From NCBI GenBank assembly GCA_028871815.1, contig JAGWMJ010000002.1, positions 62,001 to 126,000 of the forward strand: 64,000 bases of DNA, read 5' to 3'. This DNA is from Armatimonadota bacterium. GTDB lineage: Bacteria > Armatimonadota > Chthonomonadetes > Chthonomonadales > Chthonomonadaceae. Under the pieces are notes generated by a model. The model was not told the origin of the DNA and made no database searches. It was given only the letters and a program-made list of their open reading frames with translations. A program made the translations under genes and the position numbers. The first letter of the stretch is position 1, and each line of letters begins with the position of its first letter. This document shows, piece after piece, positions 23,341 through 31,111 of this stretch.

Positions 23341-23410
23341 TATCGATCTCCTTCTAGTGCAAGCGTTGGCGGTCCGGTTCGCCGCCGGCCACTATTCTGA
23401 AGTGGCTGGA

Positions 23411-23491
23411 TTAACCCCACGTCAAGGCGAAATTAAACGTTGGTACGCTGCATTAACGCGCCGTGAGGGCGAGGTTAACCGTCGGTTAATG
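23411..23491. promoter_or_regulatory. Phased TTAAnn elements upstream of the prepilin-like gene
   Basis: TTAACC 23411, TTAAAC 23433, TTAACG 23453, TTAACC 23475 and TTAATG 23486 are spaced 22, 20, 22 and 11 bp. The last two also form an inverted repeat, TTAACC-GTC-GGTTAA (23475-23489). The elements lie 70-150 bp before the start at 23340. They could be tandem sites for a PhoB-type regulator or one palindromic operator; both are inference. Confidence 0.35.
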
Positions 23492-23599
23492 GTGGAGGTT
23501 GCCGCCGTGGTGGCGGCTGCCGCGCTTATGGCCGGGCCGGTATGCGGTGCCGCCGGCTTTGCACCAATGGTCGCGCCGCTGAAATACGCGTAAAGTGCA

Positions 23600-24960
23600 G
23601 TTGGCTGAAGTAAAGACCCGAGCGTGGGACAAACTTAGATCCTGGAGCGGGGCGAAGGTTGTTGGGATCTCGCTAACCCATACTTGTACATTAGGGGATA
23701 AATCGGGGGTATGCAGCATATGGGCGTAGCCAGCATGGCTGCATGCTGGTTGGCGGTGGCGGATGATGCAGGCGGGCATCCGTGACCCGCATGTCGTATA
23801 TGTCGCCTCTGTACCATCTTCGTCAGGGCTTGGGCGTTCGTCGCGTACCGCGACAAACCACACGTCTGCGTTATGAATTTAATGCAACATAAGTGACATA
23901 TTTCGGCAGCTGTCCTTGCTGTTTGCTGGTTGCCGGTGGCGGATTTCTGGTGGGCCGTCCAACGGCGACCCGTAGATTGTCGAAGGGATACGGCAAGCCG
24001 CTCACGTGCACGGCCACGTGCGCGACATCTGATGGCGCAATTGCTCACCGGCAGCGGCCTCTGCACCGAACGCCTCGCCCAACAGAGAGGTCGCCTTGGC
24101 CGCGGATGCGGCCAAATAGTTCGTCGAGTTCGGGAACTGCACTATCGCGGCGATGACGTTCGTTGATTCCTAGAACGACCTAACCCACACGCGCGAGGCA
24201 AAGCTAACCAGGGTCTTGGCGGCCACCATCCAACGACTGTCTGGCCTTCCTGTCCGAAGGGCGCAAGCCAAACCCGGCGGCATCATTCACGGCTTGCTCA
24301 AGCAGCACGGCGGCACCATTGGAAAGCCGATCCCGGAAGTGACGCCACGGTCATCACGTGCGGTCTGGCGCCGGCGACTGCCAACACCAAGCATTACCGA
24401 TTTGTACCCGACGCCGGGCTTATCATCCAGCCTGAAAACCCGCGCACCACCTCACCGTAACCAGCTTCCACAAGGCGCTCAAGGCCATGTTACCACCGAG
24501 GGCGAGACCCTCGCCCGAAACGACCTACGAGCGGCCGGCGACGTTTCGCGTGTCGATGCGTCCTCCGCGAGGTGGCTGATCCTTTGGCGCAGTGTTTCCC
24601 AACGATCAAGTATTTCAAACTGGTTTCAATCCGGCTATCTGGTCCACTTCGATACGCGAATTTCGGCAGCAATACAATTGACAAAGCATCTGGGGCGTTC
24701 CATATTCAACGCGGCTTCGGCCCGTTCGCCATCAGTCCTTCTTGGGCCTGCCTTTGACGTTATTGTGAGGCGCGTGATTCGCTGCGTTAACCGCCTCGGC
24801 GGCGCATTCCGGCGAAAGTGCGATCACTCTCCGAAATGCTTCATCCGTACGCTCGAATGGATCAGTGCTGTCGAACTATGCAGCCATACGGACCGGTGCC
24901 TCTATAGCTTCTCACTTCGCGGCTTTATTGTAGGACATCTTCCGTGCGGCGGCGTATACT
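23600..24960. other. Gene-poor stretch with probable gene debris
   Basis: No intact gene with a start, ribosome site and recognisable family is visible in about 1.35 kb. The longest frame (24216-24962, plus strand) has Ser/Arg-rich low-quality sequence. Several short segments read like real protein when frames are switched: plus-strand pieces GLPVRRAQAKPGGIIHGLL, TVITCGLAPATANTKHYRF and VPDAGLIIQPENPRTT follow each other across frame changes between about 24230 and 24460. They were not identified. This fits a decayed insertion at the edge of the restriction-modification island. Confidence 0.4.
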
Positions 24961-24966
24961 GACGTC

Positions 24967-25362
24967 ATGGATACGGACGAGCGCTACAAGCATATGTCCG
25001 CCGTCAGGTCCAAAGGTTCGAAGCCCGAGATCCTGGTGCGAAAACTGACGCACTCGCTTGGTTACAGATATCGCCTTCATGCTAAGAGATTGCCGGGAAA
25101 GCCGGATCTTGTATTCCTCGGAAAGCGAAAGGTCATCTTCGTCCACGGTTGTTTCTGGCACGGGCACGACTGCCGACGCGGAAAGAGGGTAATTCGGACT
25201 AACCAAGCATATTGGGCGCCGAAGCTCGCCAAGAACACTGAACGCGACGCTATTAACGCGGGCACGCTTCAGACAATGGGCTGGGGAGTGCTTGTCATTT
25301 GGGAGTGTGAAACCTTCCAACTAGACATCCTGCGGCGCCGGATCATCGAATTCCTCGGATGA
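24967..25362 (+). CDS. vsr: Very short patch repair endonuclease (Vsr)
   Basis: The 131-residue protein matches the Vsr family throughout: DERYKHMSAVRSKGSKPE, LGYRYRLHAKRLPGKPDLVF with catalytic Asp47, KVIFVHGCFWHGHDC (metal/His cluster; Zn-binding His and Cys), and the C-terminal WGVLVIWECE. Vsr nicks beside T:G mismatches created when 5-methylcytosine deaminates, and is normally encoded next to a C5 methyltransferase, as here. It is on the plus strand and its last 42 bp overlap, tail to tail, the end of the restriction gene. A TATACT hexamer at about 24954 may be its -10 element. Confidence 0.95.
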   Translation: MDTDERYKHMSAVRSKGSKPEILVRKLTHSLGYRYRLHAKRLPGKPDLVFLGKRKVIFVHGCFWHGHDCRRGKRVIRTNQAYWAPKLAKNTERDAINAGTLQTMGWGVLVIWECETFQLDILRRRIIEFLG

Positions 25363-26373
25363 CGCGTCTTCGTCGAGCCCGGTAAACAAATGATCCGACG
25401 GAACCCAGTCTTTCGCCAGACTGTCGGCCTTTTCCAGCCAACGAGGGATACGATCGGCCACCGGTACGCCTTCTTCCCAATACTCTAAGAACAAATCGTC
25501 GGGAAGATCGATTGCCGCTTGGCGCATAGCGCCTTGAATGCGCTCAAGCGACCGCAACAGGTAATTCCCGCCGCGCTCCTTACCAGCCACGCTTCCCGCG
25601 CTGAACAAGTCCCTGGTTTGCGGACAATAAACATTATGGTACTTGAGAATAAAGAAGGGGACACCCTCATACTTATTGCGAACCCGACTACCCGCGACGA
25701 TACCGGGAAACAGCAGAGCCGCTTCTGCCCGGATCTGCAGTTTCCTCTCCGGAGGTAGCCGCATGTAGAGCTCGACCTTGAGTTCAATACCTGGGCCGCC
25801 GTCTTCTTCAAGCCACCATAACGTCTCACCGGGCTTAAGTCGTTTCCTGGAATAGTCACGAACGTGGGCCATCTTTTCGATGGCTCCCAACTTCGAGAAA
25901 TCCTCGTAACTGATGTTCATCTTCGAGAACAAGGGCACGTGCGAGGCTGTGTCGGTCTCCATTTCAAGGACGAATCGCGGGGCATGCGATATGCGTACGT
26001 GAGTGATCGTTTCTTCATACCTTCCCCACTTCACGGCAGGCATCCCGCCAAGTTTCCCGAAGATAACGTATATGTCCTTAACGTCCCTGTCGCGCATCCC
26101 CTCGAAGATGCTGTTTCCAACGCTCAACCAAGAATCATTCGCAACGCTTTTGACTTCGACCCCATATCCGTTTGCTCGAATATCCGGGAACGCATGGGGA
26201 TGAAAAGTCGGACCGATGTCAATCCCCCCGACCGACCTTGCGACTTCCTGAAGCACCTTCAAAACTCGGTCCTGGAAATCCAATGGCTTAAAGTACTTCT
26301 TGCCCGCGCTGACGTCCTTATTCAGCCGTTCAACGGCAAGGTCAAGGACGGTTTCGAAGTCGCCCTGTATCAT
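25321..26373 (-). CDS. Putative type II restriction endonuclease (PD-(D/E)XK)
   Basis: The 350-residue protein has FPDIRANGYGVEVKS, i.e. PD-x8-E-V-K with D64, E73 and K75, the metal-binding core of PD-(D/E)XK nucleases. ATG 26373 overlaps the methyltransferase stop (ATGA) and is chosen over an upstream ATG at 26409. The nuclease core is in the N-terminal quarter; the rest (LRLPPERKLQIRAEAALLFP, VPFFILKYHNVYC) shows no recognised domain. Position directly after a C5 methyltransferase identifies it as its cognate restriction enzyme (inference). Recognition sequence cannot be predicted. Base composition is lower in GC than the housekeeping flanks. Confidence 0.83.
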   Translation of the reverse strand: MIQGDFETVLDLAVERLNKDVSAGKKYFKPLDFQDRVLKVLQEVARSVGGIDIGPTFHPHAFPDIRANGYGVEVKSVANDSWLSVGNSIFEGMRDRDVKDIYVIFGKLGGMPAVKWGRYEETITHVRISHAPRFVLEMETDTASHVPLFSKMNISYEDFSKLGAIEKMAHVRDYSRKRLKPGETLWWLEEDGGPGIELKVELYMRLPPERKLQIRAEAALLFPGIVAGSRVRNKYEGVPFFILKYHNVYCPQTRDLFSAGSVAGKERGGNYLLRSLERIQGAMRQAAIDLPDDLFLEYWEEGVPVADRIPRWLEKADSLAKDWVPSDHLFTGLDEDASSEEFDDPAPQDV

Positions 26374-27461
26374 TTCAAGCAGTCGGCCACGGATCGGGCA
26401 ATATGCCATCCAAGGACAGGCGGGACGGCATTTCCGACCTGCCTTTCCGTCTCGCGCAGTCTTGACTCAAAGATGAATTCGTCGGGAAACGATTGAAACC
26501 GCGCTGCTTCCCTCATCGAAATACGTCGCGGTAAGGAGTAGTGAAACTGAATGTTCCCGTGGCACTCGGCGCGGATGGTATCGGCTGGCCTGTCAGCCTT
26601 GATGCGTCTGTTTCCCTGATCCGGGCTAAGAGCCGCTTTACTCCAGATGTGATTGATTGCCTCAGATTCTTCCATACCTATGAGGTCGCCGATGGCGTCT
26701 TGCGACGTGACCCAGGCCTCTTTGAACATCAGTGGGGCTGGTTTGCTGAACGGACGCACCGCCGGCAGAGTGCCGACGATAAAAACGCGCTCCCTCATCT
26801 GCGGCACGCCATATTCTGCCGCGAGGTAAAGGCCGTACGACACGTTGTAGCCAATATCCTCGAATGCCGAAATGATCGCCTTTAGCGAATCCGCGTTGTA
26901 TTTCAGTAGCAAACCTTTTACGTTCTCGGCGACAAAGACCTGCGGTTTCAACCGGGTGACCGCTTCGACCATCGCCCGGTAGAGACCGCTTCGCACGCCC
27001 GCGACGCCCGCCCTTTTGCCGTTAATTGAAATGTCTTGGCAAGGGAAACCGCCAATTACGACGTCAGCCCGTTCGGGCATTGACGACATGGATTCCCAGA
27101 CGTCGCCGCACACGATATGATCCGCGAGATTTCTGCGGTACGTGTTGCAGGCGTTTGGATTAACATCGTTGGCCCATTTGATTTCAAACGGCAGTGCATC
27201 ATATTCGCGTCCAAGGAATTGAAATCCGCCGGTAAAGCCGAGATCTAGGCCACCGCAACCCGAAAAGAGCGAGACAACGGAATGTAAGCGCGACAGATGG
27301 GCCTGCGCCGATGACAGATCTTCGCGTATGTCCGCAACGTCCGTCATGTAATCAGGCGCGTTGCCTGCGATTCCGCTGGAGCTTGGTTCTATCCGCTGTC
27401 CGACCCCGTAGGCGCTTCTTCTTTCCGCCACGACGCGGCTGTTTAACCCAGTGAAGATCAT
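26370..27461 (-). CDS. DNA (cytosine-5) methyltransferase
   Basis: The 363-residue enzyme shows motif I VVSLFSGCGGLDLGF (from residue 62), motif IV GGFPCQDISINGKRAG with catalytic C141, motif VI AENVKGLLL, motif VIII PQMRERVFIVGT, and motif X ERQVGNAVPPVLGWHIA. The target-recognition region (about 240-320) is short, as in type II mono-specific enzymes. ATG 27461 has the ribosome site AGGAG at good spacing; motif I is unusually far in, giving a 60-residue leader of no known family. An alternative start is at 27347. It overlaps the restriction gene by 4 bp and follows a dead transposase whose frame runs into this ATG. Confidence 0.95.
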   Translation of the reverse strand: MIFTGLNSRVVAERRSAYGVGQRIEPSSSGIAGNAPDYMTDVADIREDLSSAQAHLSRLHSVVSLFSGCGGLDLGFTGGFQFLGREYDALPFEIKWANDVNPNACNTYRRNLADHIVCGDVWESMSSMPERADVVIGGFPCQDISINGKRAGVAGVRSGLYRAMVEAVTRLKPQVFVAENVKGLLLKYNADSLKAIISAFEDIGYNVSYGLYLAAEYGVPQMRERVFIVGTLPAVRPFSKPAPLMFKEAWVTSQDAIGDLIGMEESEAINHIWSKAALSPDQGNRRIKADRPADTIRAECHGNIQFHYSLPRRISMREAARFQSFPDEFIFESRLRETERQVGNAVPPVLGWHIARSVADCLK

Positions 27462-28420
27462 GCTGGTGCTCCTGGCTGATTGAGGTCTGCCTGCGTGCCT
27501 GTCAGTTGCTTATTAGGTGAGTCTTTTACCCGAACTTTCCGGGTAACGGTTCGAAACCGATCGGAATCTTTGCCCTTGCACTGATTGAACCTGAACGTCT
27601 ATTCGTCCAGATAACGGTTATGACGGAATGGCGCGACCGAAACGTACGAGCGGGATAGAGTCAGCTGCAGGAGCGACCAGACGTTTTTCATTCCGTTAGT
27701 GTGAACGCTGCCATCAACGTAGCTGACCGCGTGGTCGATTATGCGGTGCCGGTGGGTCTCACCGAGCCCGTCGTAGGACTTGAGCGCGTTAGTGAAGAAC
27801 CCGCGACCCGGAATGGGGTTGTTCTTGGTGACGGCCCGAAGGTTCTTCTTCGTACGTCGGCAGACGTGCCGACGCTTGCCCTCACGGTTTCGCTCCAGCA
27901 TTCCGAACGCCGCGGCTTTGCCCTTGCCGCCGGTACCGGTGATCTTTGCGTCCCTTACCTGCTTGTGCATATTGCGAGCCTTGCTACCGGTGTAGGTTTC
28001 GTCGGCTTCGGCCCAGTCACCCAGCTTTTCAAGTGATCCATTCTGAACCGCGAGGCGAATCCGATGGAGCATGAACCACCCGGTATCCTGCGTGACGCCC
28101 AGCGCCCGGTGAATCCCATAGGTGCTAATCCCATTCATCGCGTGCACGATCAGCCACACAGCAATGACACGCTTGTCAAGGCTCGGAGGCGAGTCCTCGA
28201 GGATTGAGCCGGACTTTGCGGTGAGTTGCCTCTTGCCGTGTCGCTTCGAACAGTCAGAGCAATTCACGCCCGGAAGGTAGGTAACCGCGGTCGAAGCGCA
28301 CATTGGGCACACAACGCCCTTTGGCCCGCGTCGAGAAACGACGTACTCCAACCAGTCCTCTGGCCCGCGGAGATACTCGACTGCTTCCGTCAACGTTACC
28401 GGTGTTTTACTCATGGACAT
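27458..28420 (-). pseudogene. IS1595/ISXO2-like transposase, inactivated
   Basis: The frame from ATG 28420 has the family zinc ribbon (C38-x2-C41, C54-x2-C57) and the DDE-type domain: EADETYTGSKARNMHK (D140 present), FFTNALKSYDGL where the second catalytic Asp is Asn211, HTNGMKNVWSLLQ where family Glu and Lys are Lys245 and Gln252, and YVSVAPFRHNRYLDE. There a TAG stop (27599-27601) replaces the Gln expected in RYLDEQxFRFN. After it the family tail continues in frame (TFRFNQCKGKDSDRF, NKQLTG) to TGA 27458-27460, which overlaps the methyltransferase ATG. No terminal inverted repeats were found. It is a relic, or less likely a catalytically dead, domesticated protein. Confidence 0.85.
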
Positions 28421-28638
28421 AGTGCAGATCAGTGAGGGTGATTTGTCAAATATGCGTCGGCTCCAATCTGGTCCAACCCGCGATCTTCGTGCAGCGGCGG
28501 TGATGACCGGCGGTTCCGTGAGGCGCGTGTGGCTTAGGTCCGTTAGGCCCCCGTGGCGCAACCTGTGCGAGCGCATTTCCTCGATGCGTCTCATTGTGGT
28601 CAACCAGTCGAACCGTCGGAGACCTCCCAGCGCGGCAG

Positions 28639-29577
28639 CTATGCAGCATATCCTTCGTCAATGTCGTCAGCAAAGCAGTGTAGCGAGTCGAATCGCGCGC
28701 GTACGCAAGCGGCGTAGATTGTAGCGTCCCGTGCGTCTACACTGCCAGCCGCCCGTCCGCGCTGGTTCTCAAGGAACGCTGCAAGCCACGCGACAGGGTG
28801 TTCCAGTTCGTCGTACACCTTCTTGATCGGGCCGTACGCGTCCAGACGTATTCCGCGTCGCAAGAGCGCCGCCTCAAACTCTCGCAGGAAGCGCCGCAGC
28901 TCCGCGATAGCAGCCAAGCCGACGCCCACGCGAGCTGGCGTCACGTCCCGCGTTGCCTTGGCAACGTTTGCCGACTGATACGGTGCGGCGCTGAAGATGG
29001 CTGCGAGGCTTTTGTCCGCGAACTGCGTTCGATGCGCTTTATCGAGTGCCTCCAACTCGCCCAAGAGCGCTTTCAGGATGTCGCCGATGGCCTCCGCTTG
29101 CTGTGCGATCAAGTCCTTCAGATCGACCTCGTCGAGCTTGTCGCTGGCGCGGCCGCCGCTCGACATGAGCACGAAGCCACCGTAGTGAAGAGTGTCCCGG
29201 GAGATGAAGTGAACGGTCGTAGGCTTCGGGCGGTCGCGCTTCGTCGGATGCCCGGTGCTGGCGTTCCGGATATCGCGGATGTTTCTAAGCGCTTTGTTTG
29301 CCCGACCGCCGTCGGTTAGGCCGAGAGCTTCAGCCAAGTGTTTGGCGGCGTCCTGCTGCAGGATTAGGGCCTGGAGCACGCCGTACGTAGCGATATACGA
29401 TGCACCCAGCGAGCTACCGCATTCCTGGGTCGCATAGGCCGCTACTGCTTCCTCGGTGTCCTCGAGCACGTCGAGGAAACTGCATAGCTGGTTCCACTTA
29501 GAGCCCTCAATTAACTGTGCACGCTTGCGCTCGTCGTTTACGATGTCGCGGATTGCGCGTACAAGCTCGGATATCAT
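28639..29577 (-). CDS. HEPN-like protein of unknown function, defence-island neighbour
   Basis: The 312-residue, largely helical protein has a segment typical of HEPN domains: a long helix around YIATYGVLQALILQQDAAKHLAEALGL and then LRNIRDIRNASTGHPTKRD, giving R104-N-x4-H110, an R-x5-H motif with the polar residue after Arg seen in HEPN RNases. Two further helical regions follow (about 150-190 and 225-300). Start ATG 29577 has GGAG at proper spacing. It lies next to the restriction-modification genes and a Cas3-like fragment on the same strand. RNase activity and a role in phage defence or toxicity are inferences. Confidence 0.65.
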   Translation of the reverse strand: MISELVRAIRDIVNDERKRAQLIEGSKWNQLCSFLDVLEDTEEAVAAYATQECGSSLGASYIATYGVLQALILQQDAAKHLAEALGLTDGGRANKALRNIRDIRNASTGHPTKRDRPKPTTVHFISRDTLHYGGFVLMSSGGRASDKLDEVDLKDLIAQQAEAIGDILKALLGELEALDKAHRTQFADKSLAAIFSAAPYQSANVAKATRDVTPARVGVGLAAIAELRRFLREFEAALLRRGIRLDAYGPIKKVYDELEHPVAWLAAFLENQRGRAAGSVDARDATIYAACVRARFDSLHCFADDIDEGYAA

Positions 29578-29776
29578 AGAATGAACTCCACGACGCTAAC
29601 TAATGTCGTTAAAGGCCAATCCGTTGCGAAAATAACATTTGCCTAGACTGCCCACACGGGCATGCGTCTGGCCGCGCGTCGCACATCACAGCGGCAGCGA
29701 ACCGGTCTAATCCCCCCGCGCTACACGTACCATCTTTCAGCCGCTTCCTCATAGCGATGCGAGCCTGGGTGCGCGC

Positions 29777-30058
29777 TCATAGCCTTGCGTGTTGTATCCA
29801 CAGCATTGCCGCTTCCTCCTCCATCGCCGTTCTCGGCGGCCTTTCCTTCACCACCGCCTGTATGCCGCGGCACCGCGCCGCCCGAGCCTGCGTCCGTTTC
29901 CCGAGACTCCCCTGCGACGCGAACGCCTCGGCGAAGTTGCGTGCCGCCTCCATCACGTTGGCGGTATGTTCCCGCATGGTTTGCCAGGCACCGTCCGCGC
30001 CCGCGCTGTGTGCGTAATACACGTTGCCGTCCGCCGGGGTTTTATGCTCGTCTGCCAT
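29777..30058 (-). pseudogene. Fragment resembling the N-terminus of CRISPR Cas3 (HD domain)
   Basis: The 93-residue frame begins with GNVYYAHSAGADGAWQTMREH followed by TANVMEAARNFAEAF. This is the layout of the Cas3 HD nuclease N-terminus (YAHS near the start, W, then EH and a helix). After about residue 50 it turns into Arg/Ala-rich sequence and stops; the HD (HDxGK) motif and helicase are missing, although LGKR occurs. A GGAG lies just before the ATG. No other cas gene or CRISPR repeat is in the window. The call rests on pattern likeness only. Confidence 0.5.
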
Positions 30059-30235: not shown

Positions 30236-31111
30236 ATGCTGTCATCGCTTCCAAAATACATGCCGGCGGCCGAGGCGGCCCAACTTGCCGCTCGCATCGC
30301 CCACTATGAGGCCCGCTGGTCGCTTCGCTGCGGACCCGCGTTTCCCGATCTCTCGTACCACTATGTGGCGCCCGCAGTGTTGAGCGACGGCTCGGACGCC
30401 GTACTCAAGCTGCGCGGCCCGGGGCAGCAGTGCACCTGCGAAGTTGCCGCGCTGCAGCGTTTCGATGGCCGCGGCGCGGCAAGGCTGCTCCAAGCGGATG
30501 AAGAGGAGGGTGCGCTGCTGCTCGAACGACTCCAGCCCGGCACATTGCTGGTGGAGCTGGTGGAGCAGGGGCGCGATGAGGAGGCGACCTCGATTGCGGC
30601 AGGCGTCATGCAAAAGCTGTGGCGCCGGCCGCCGCCCGAACACCAGTTTCCTACCGTGGCGCAGTGGGCCGGCGCGCTTTCAAAGCTTCGTCCGCACTAT
30701 GGCGGCACCACCGGTCCGTTTCCCCGCGAGCTGGTGGAGGAGGCCGAAACCACATTTGCCGAGCTGACGGCGAATCCCGAGGAGCAGCTCCTTCTGCACG
30801 GCGATGTGCACCACTTCAACATCCTTGCGGCGGGGCGAGAGCCCTGGCTAGCCATCGATCCTCAGGGTGTCATCGGTGAACGAGGCTTTGAACTCGGCCC
30901 GCTGCTGCAGAATCCACGGCCGCTGCCCGCCAGCCTCCTTGCGCGGCGGCTGGATCAACTCTGCGAAGAGCTGCATCTGGATCGCAGCCGCACACGGGCG
31001 TGGGCAATGGCGCAGAGCGTGTTATCTGCGTGGTGGTGCGTGGAGGATGGCGCCGGCTGCGAAGAGGTCGGCATTCTATGCTGCCGGCGGCTTGCGGAAG
31101 TTCCGGCGTAG
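30236..31111 (+). CDS. Aminoglycoside/hydroxyurea phosphotransferase-like kinase
   Basis: The 291-residue protein fits the APH(6)/hydroxyurea-kinase branch of small-molecule kinases. Seen are an N-lobe with DAVLKLRGPG (ATP Lys) and EVAALQRFDGRGAARLL, the LLLERLQPGTLL hinge, the catalytic loop LLHGDVHHFNIL (Asp, His, Asn), and the metal motif AIDPQGVIGERGFELG. It would phosphorylate a hydroxylated small molecule; the natural substrate is unknown and resistance should not be assumed. ATG 30236 is chosen because upstream in-frame sequence (from 29789) is non-conserved and antisense to the Cas3-like fragment. It ends 8 bp from the convergent pirin gene. Confidence 0.88.
   Translation: MLSSLPKYMPAAEAAQLAARIAHYEARWSLRCGPAFPDLSYHYVAPAVLSDGSDAVLKLRGPGQQCTCEVAALQRFDGRGAARLLQADEEEGALLLERLQPGTLLVELVEQGRDEEATSIAAGVMQKLWRRPPPEHQFPTVAQWAGALSKLRPHYGGTTGPFPRELVEEAETTFAELTANPEEQLLLHGDVHHFNILAAGREPWLAIDPQGVIGERGFELGPLLQNPRPLPASLLARRLDQLCEELHLDRSRTRAWAMAQSVLSAWWCVEDGAGCEEVGILCCRRLAEVPA

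Follow-up and report, generated by a model that had tools for sequence, protein, structure and literature searches.

A patch of defence genes with an intact restriction-modification and Vsr cassette beside a solo HEPN-like gene in an Armatimonadota genome

Gene content and composition of the patch

The window, a 64,000-nucleotide stretch of an Armatimonadota genome, carries a patch of defence-related genes that reads, from left to right: gene debris; a vsr gene on the forward strand; and then, all on the reverse strand, genes for a type II restriction endonuclease (REase), a C5-cytosine DNA methyltransferase (MTase), an IS1595-family transposase, an HEPN-like protein, and an N-terminal fragment of Cas3. 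Directly to the right lies an intact gene for an APH(6)/hydroxyurea-type kinase (30260–31111, forward strand; PF04655, 174 bits), which is host-like in composition and patchily present within the family. The original prediction gave correct coordinates for the genes that it listed, but it overlooked the transposase (28420–27599), and the MTase, whose called ORF starts at 27461, most likely begins at 27347. Its description of the surroundings as metabolic is supported, in that the neighbouring genes are non-defence genes. No RNA families were found in 20–34 kb.

We compared the composition of each gene with that of 27 flank genes (codon score 0.187, sd 0.042; GC3 0.727, sd 0.029; GC 0.63). Only Vsr, REase and MTase deviate strongly, with codon scores of 0.005, −0.018 and 0.025, respectively, GC of 0.54–0.55 and GC3 of 0.63–0.66. 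The deviation is weaker in the transposase (codon score 0.084) and weakest in the HEPN-like gene (0.112; GC 0.608), both of which are only mildly off the flank reference. Hence, the proposed check of GC and codon usage marks three genes as clearly foreign, and not the whole segment. Similarly, the predicted lowering of GC relative to the flanks is real, but the drop is sharp only over about 24.5–28.0 kb, and the HEPN-like ORF and the Cas3-like HD fragment (GC 0.649) fall inside or close to the flank range.

The debris at the left edge (23350–24960, no strand assigned) lacks coding signal, its best frame scoring about 0.03 as compared with 0.13–0.31 in the neighbouring gene. The codon usage of a 248-amino-acid ORF on the forward strand (24216–24962) is unlike that of the host, and no relative of this ORF was found. 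Six-frame pieces of the debris gave no match in Pfam or PHROGs and have no paralogue in the genome. The claim of debris therefore stands for 23.35–24.96 kb as far as the absence of coding signal is concerned, but not as regards the identity of the gene, for which there is no library match.

The restriction-modification genes, Vsr and the adjoining transposase

The vsr gene (24967–25362, forward strand) is an intact ORF encoding a 131-amino-acid mismatch endonuclease, assigned by profile search to TIGR00632 (141.7 bits over residues 3–115; curated cut-off 97.85 bits) and to PF03852 (99.8 bits). The REase (25321–26409, reverse strand; 362 amino acids) matches PADLOC PDLC03508 (REase_II; E = 3e-80) over residues 13–344, and its PD-x8-EVK motif (P75-D76, E85 and K87) is invariant in an alignment across six relatives. 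The MTase (26370–27347, reverse strand) matches PF00145 (213.6 bits) and TIGR00675 (195.8 bits); the motifs GFPCQD, ENVKGLL and QVGNAVPPVL are conserved in an alignment over six relatives, with the PCQ, ENV and GNxxxP elements of a C5 enzyme all present. Since relatives align only from residue about 37–60 of the called ORF, the start at 27461 is probably over-called, and the true start is probably M39, at 27347. The vsr and REase genes converge, with their 3′ ends overlapping by 42 nt, and the MTase gene, in tandem with the REase gene, overlaps the start of the latter by 40 nt. We conclude that, judged from its ORFs and motifs, the R-M-Vsr core is intact, as the original prediction had claimed for a Vsr, a PD-x8-EVK nuclease and an overlapping C5 methyltransferase, and the coordinates that it gave are right. 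Site avoidance was considered as a clue to the specificity of the system; CTAG and TATA are low in the window and GGCC is at 0.83 of expected, a pattern of 4- and 6-mers that is not diagnostic.

The MTase–REase pair is found adjacent, in tandem or convergent, on two plasmids, Pelobacter pPRO2 and one of K. pneumoniae, as well as in three further phylum genomes, with 27–56% identity for the REase and 50–68% for the MTase. The pair is kept in six loci, and we conclude that it is a stable unit. Vsr adjoins it in two of the loci, on the Klebsiella plasmid and in one other phylum genome, in gene orders that differ from that of the window. The arrangement had been put forward as new, a claim that these two loci weaken.

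Within the phylum the REase is rare, being present in 4 of 291 genomes, that of the window among them, and in none of the 16 other genomes of the family. From their composition and this distribution we regard the R-M-Vsr genes as foreign, and we conclude that the R-M-Vsr cassette was acquired horizontally. The predicted absence from relatives thus holds at the level of genes, although not as an empty site. We compared relatives that carry orthologues of the PhoR-like kinase and of the APH gene, and these have no further gene order in common; the relatives examined share only isolated genes, such as a response-regulator/kinase pair, with no order around the patch. An empty site is not demonstrable, since these relatives do not keep the order of the flanking genes. 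Among the viral contigs searched, none contained a relative of the REase or of the HEPN-like protein. The prediction of an acquired island is consequently upheld by composition and rarity for R-M-Vsr; arrival of all the pieces as one island is unsupported, the HEPN-like gene being near host-like.

Directly upstream of the MTase gene is a decayed transposase gene of the IS1595 family (27467–28420, reverse strand; NF033547, 109.9 bits with a cut-off of 75 bits; PF12762, DDE_Tnp_IS1595). Its ORF (28420–27599) runs for 273 codons to an in-frame TAG at 27599–27601 (YLDE*TFRFNQ), and the frame beyond this stop reads TFRFNQCKGKDSDRF, which matches the continuation in intact transposase relatives. There is no second IS1595 transposase in the genome. 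Neither terminal inverted repeats nor a target-site duplication was found at the expected IS1595 ends, and the element is decayed.

An 18-nt inverted repeat (17 of 18 positions matching; 24177–24194 and 28523–28540) encloses the debris, vsr, REase, MTase and transposase genes, and could mark the ends of a single IS1595-type transposon with R-M-Vsr as its cargo. The repeat has only two occurrences in the 3.68-Mb genome at up to two mismatches, it encloses exactly the set from debris to transposase, and its score was reached by 2 of 500 shuffles for the region upstream of the transposase and by 5 of 300 in a wider comparison. However, the repeat was chosen after the fact and lacks a target-site duplication, and no comparable terminal repeats occur in the related transposase loci examined. 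Moreover, for two related transposase copies in another genome, 90% identical, the shared DNA is confined to the interval from about −65 to +138 around the gene; this predicts element ends near 28485 and 27465 and leaves the repeat about 55 bp outside. With its position beyond the ends expected for IS1595 and no target duplication, we rejected the repeat as marking the transposon ends, and we consider carriage of the cassette on such an element very improbable.

IS1595-like transposases of the phylum (the window copy, L055–L069 and L120–L131) have a common promoter-like box (ATATACTTGACACA ... TATAAT) just upstream and are without recognisable terminal repeats. In several loci (L065, L068, L069 and L128) the transposase is followed by an overlapping ORF of about 60 amino acids with a VPK motif and no Pfam match. 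The two genes possibly form a domesticated unit, although next to the transposase of the window the small ORF has been lost.

The broken transposase and the Cas3 fragment bear out the suggestion that the R-M genes have stayed intact while their neighbours decay. A bleaker reading is that the R-M ORFs are intact but silent and that the segment is being lost, which would fit the left debris, the broken transposase and the cas3 fragment nearby. Three overlapping ORFs that retain all catalytic motifs would nonetheless be unlikely after long neglect, and joint maintenance is to be expected given that an active REase without its MTase would be lethal. We therefore think it unlikely that the patch is dead.

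The HEPN-like protein and the Cas3 fragment

The HEPN-like gene (28639–29577, reverse strand) is an intact, full-length ORF encoding 312 amino acids, analysed by alignment and by structure models with fold comparison. The HEPN motif, R-x4-6-H with a polar residue after the arginine, is present as R104-N-x4-H110, and in nine relatives of 18–41% identity R104, G109, H110 and P111 are invariant and D40-T41 is also kept. In the structure model (mean pLDDT 81), a helical N-terminal domain, into which a three-stranded sheet is inserted, is followed by a bundle of four helices at the C terminus (residues 188–312); the loop bearing H110 is poorly predicted. In fold comparison, the N-terminal model superimposes on MntA-HepT (6m6u) with Z 6.9 and 2.9 Å over 100 of 128 residues, a Z range that helical bundles also reach by chance. 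The same caution applies to the five HEPN entries (6m6u, 8xdj, 8yuf, 8xeh and 4nqf) that, with Z scores of 5.3–6.9, are among the 50 best matches and cover residues from about 20 to 180. Foldseek alone found nothing below E 0.67 for the N-terminal model. The Foldseek/VIA list for the whole model was discarded, being dominated by matches of the C-terminal four-helix bundle to unrelated helical proteins. One relative has a weak HEPN_AbiU2 match over the motif (E 0.04). From the motif and the model, we conclude that the protein likely belongs to the HEPN superfamily. This agrees with the original call of an R-x5-H HEPN-like protein, which the full-length ORF and the invariant R-x5-H further support.

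The subfamily has no match in Pfam, PADLOC, NCBIfam or PHROGs, and to that extent the suggestion that the HEPN member is new holds. HEPN families embedded in R-M operons are well documented (PMC3710099), so an HEPN gene beside R-M is not new in principle. Of the 291 phylum genomes, 4 carry the gene, and that of the window is the only one of them from the family; it is also the only genome that bears both the HEPN gene and the REase gene. Related solo genes occur in Enterovibrio, Psychromonas (two copies), Thalassolituus, Methylophaga (truncated), Marinobacter (on a plasmid), cyanobacteria and the phylum itself, and none was found in phages. The Enterovibrio gene has AbiE and HsdM/HsdS-like genes as neighbours, and the Marinobacter gene has a SIR2 protein. 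These neighbours, together with the PDC-M14A-like protein and DpdA at L051, agree with a role in defence; the remaining loci have ordinary neighbours. No adjacent nucleotidyltransferase (MNT) antitoxin gene was found in the window patch, and the relatives have no constant partner. Small membrane-protein ORFs, considered as a partner, precede the gene in three loci (L009, L010 and L103) and not in the others.

L050, L051 and L052 hold distant relatives from the same phylum. At L051, the HEPN gene overlaps a PDC-M14A-like gene, precedes DpdA and lies beside mobilisation-like genes, a setting that hints at an integrative element carrying defence cargo.

The HEPN-like and R-M genes are adjacent on the same strand, and the documented HEPN–R-M operons offer a precedent for a single functional module in which the HEPN protein, acquired together with R-M, would serve as its back-up effector, causing cell suicide upon failed restriction. 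Against this, a dead transposase gene separates the two, they differ in composition, no HEPN relative examined lies beside an R-M pair of the window type, and no R-M relative has an HEPN neighbour. We consider such a module quite unlikely. Given the near host-like GC of the HEPN gene and the lack of any relative beside this R-M family, its place in one patch with R-M may reflect proximity only.

The protein is most likely an RNase that works independently of metal ions, either in abortive infection or as an effector resembling a toxin. Tentatively, it could also be the first noted member of an undescribed family of solo abortive-infection proteins in marine gammaproteobacteria, cyanobacteria and the phylum, with an HEPN nuclease domain, an inserted beta-sheet and a C-terminal helical, possibly sensing, bundle; the gene would then be a single-gene anti-phage system, although we rate this below even chances.

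At the right edge, a 93-amino-acid ORF (29777–30058, reverse strand) begins with about 45–60 residues of a Cas3 N-terminus (about 30030–29860), the remainder of Cas3 being lost. Over 33–61 residues, the fragment is 42–58% identical to the N-termini of Cas3 ORFs in genomes of the same family; it aligns to the N-termini of Cas3-like ORFs of 720–800 codons in the family and phylum. Past residue 50–60 or so there is no clear Cas3 match. Thus, the predicted Cas3-like HD fragment is real, but it ends before a recognisable HDxGK motif, and the HD nuclease and helicase domains are absent from it. The genome itself has no Cas3 helicase match above cut-off and one below it, inside a 1213-codon frame. 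Since it resembles Cas3 of the same family, the scrap may be the remnant of a native gene. A single contig of another family genome (L115, G050:C542) bears two short Cas3 N-terminal pieces, which suggests that the family has lost type I-C cas3 repeatedly.

A probable composite origin and comparison with known systems

We consider it highly probable that the patch arose by separate events, and comprises an acquired R-M-Vsr cassette, a dead transposase, an intact solo HEPN gene and a reduced type I-C-like cas3. The cassette, a type II R-M system accompanied by a Vsr of its own, arrived horizontally. Its C5 MTase would protect a short recognition sequence, at which the PD-(D/E)xK endonuclease would cut unmodified incoming DNA, and Vsr would nick beside T:G mismatches arising from deamination of the cell's own 5-methylcytosines, so that repair can start. 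The IS1595-type transposase gene, now dead, is located directly upstream of the MTase gene. The intact solo HEPN gene beside the cassette would encode a probable metal-independent RNase, an effector of abortive infection or of toxin-like kind, and a type I-C-like cas3 has shrunk to its first 60 or so codons. We infer the enzyme activities of the R-M, Vsr and HEPN proteins, those of R-M and Vsr from knowledge of their families; the order of events is likewise presumptive, as is any tie in function between the HEPN and R-M genes.

All parts of the patch belong to known kinds, and the HEPN subfamily alone is undescribed in the four libraries searched. In carrying its own mutation repair, the R-M-Vsr cassette is typical of C5-methylating systems, here in a phylum where its REase family is rare. 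We conclude that the cassette is ordinary in kind, and that the HEPN subfamily most deserves testing: given its sparse, patchy spread and the defence genes that adjoin it at some loci, it is a candidate that could be tested cheaply for single-gene phage defence. The patch as a whole exemplifies defence genes accreting and decaying singly, rather than as one island.

The closest counterpart of the cassette is on K. pneumoniae plasmid pINF177.2 (CP110748), where all three genes adjoin and the products are 46% (REase), 58–64% (MTase) and 40% (Vsr) identical to those of the window. There, REase and MTase are convergent and MTase is preceded on its own strand by Vsr, whereas in the window MTase and REase are in overlapping tandem and Vsr converges on REase. 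Pelobacter propionicus plasmid pPRO2 (NC_008608) resembles the window in having MTase and then REase in slightly overlapping tandem (REase 47%, MTase 62–65% identical), but its pair has no adjoining Vsr. The window Vsr belongs, well above the curated cut-off, to the same family as the E. coli enzyme of very-short-patch repair (TIGR00632); however, it is part of an R-M set, whereas E. coli Vsr goes with a solitary Dcm-type methyltransferase. The Cas3 fragment has in common with type I-C Cas3 the YYAHS...W..M.EH segment, 53% identical to that of a Cas3 adjoining Csd1/Cas8c in a genome of the same family, although only its first 45–60 residues or so are left. Finally, the HEPN-like protein differs from HepT of MntA-HepT and from AbiU2-type toxins in being solo without an MNT partner, in its R-x5-H spacing, in the extra three-stranded sheet and second helical bundle (residues 188–312), and in having no curated family match, but it has the same R-x4-6-H motif with a polar residue after the arginine as these HEPN toxins, and an N-terminal helical bundle that may correspond to theirs.
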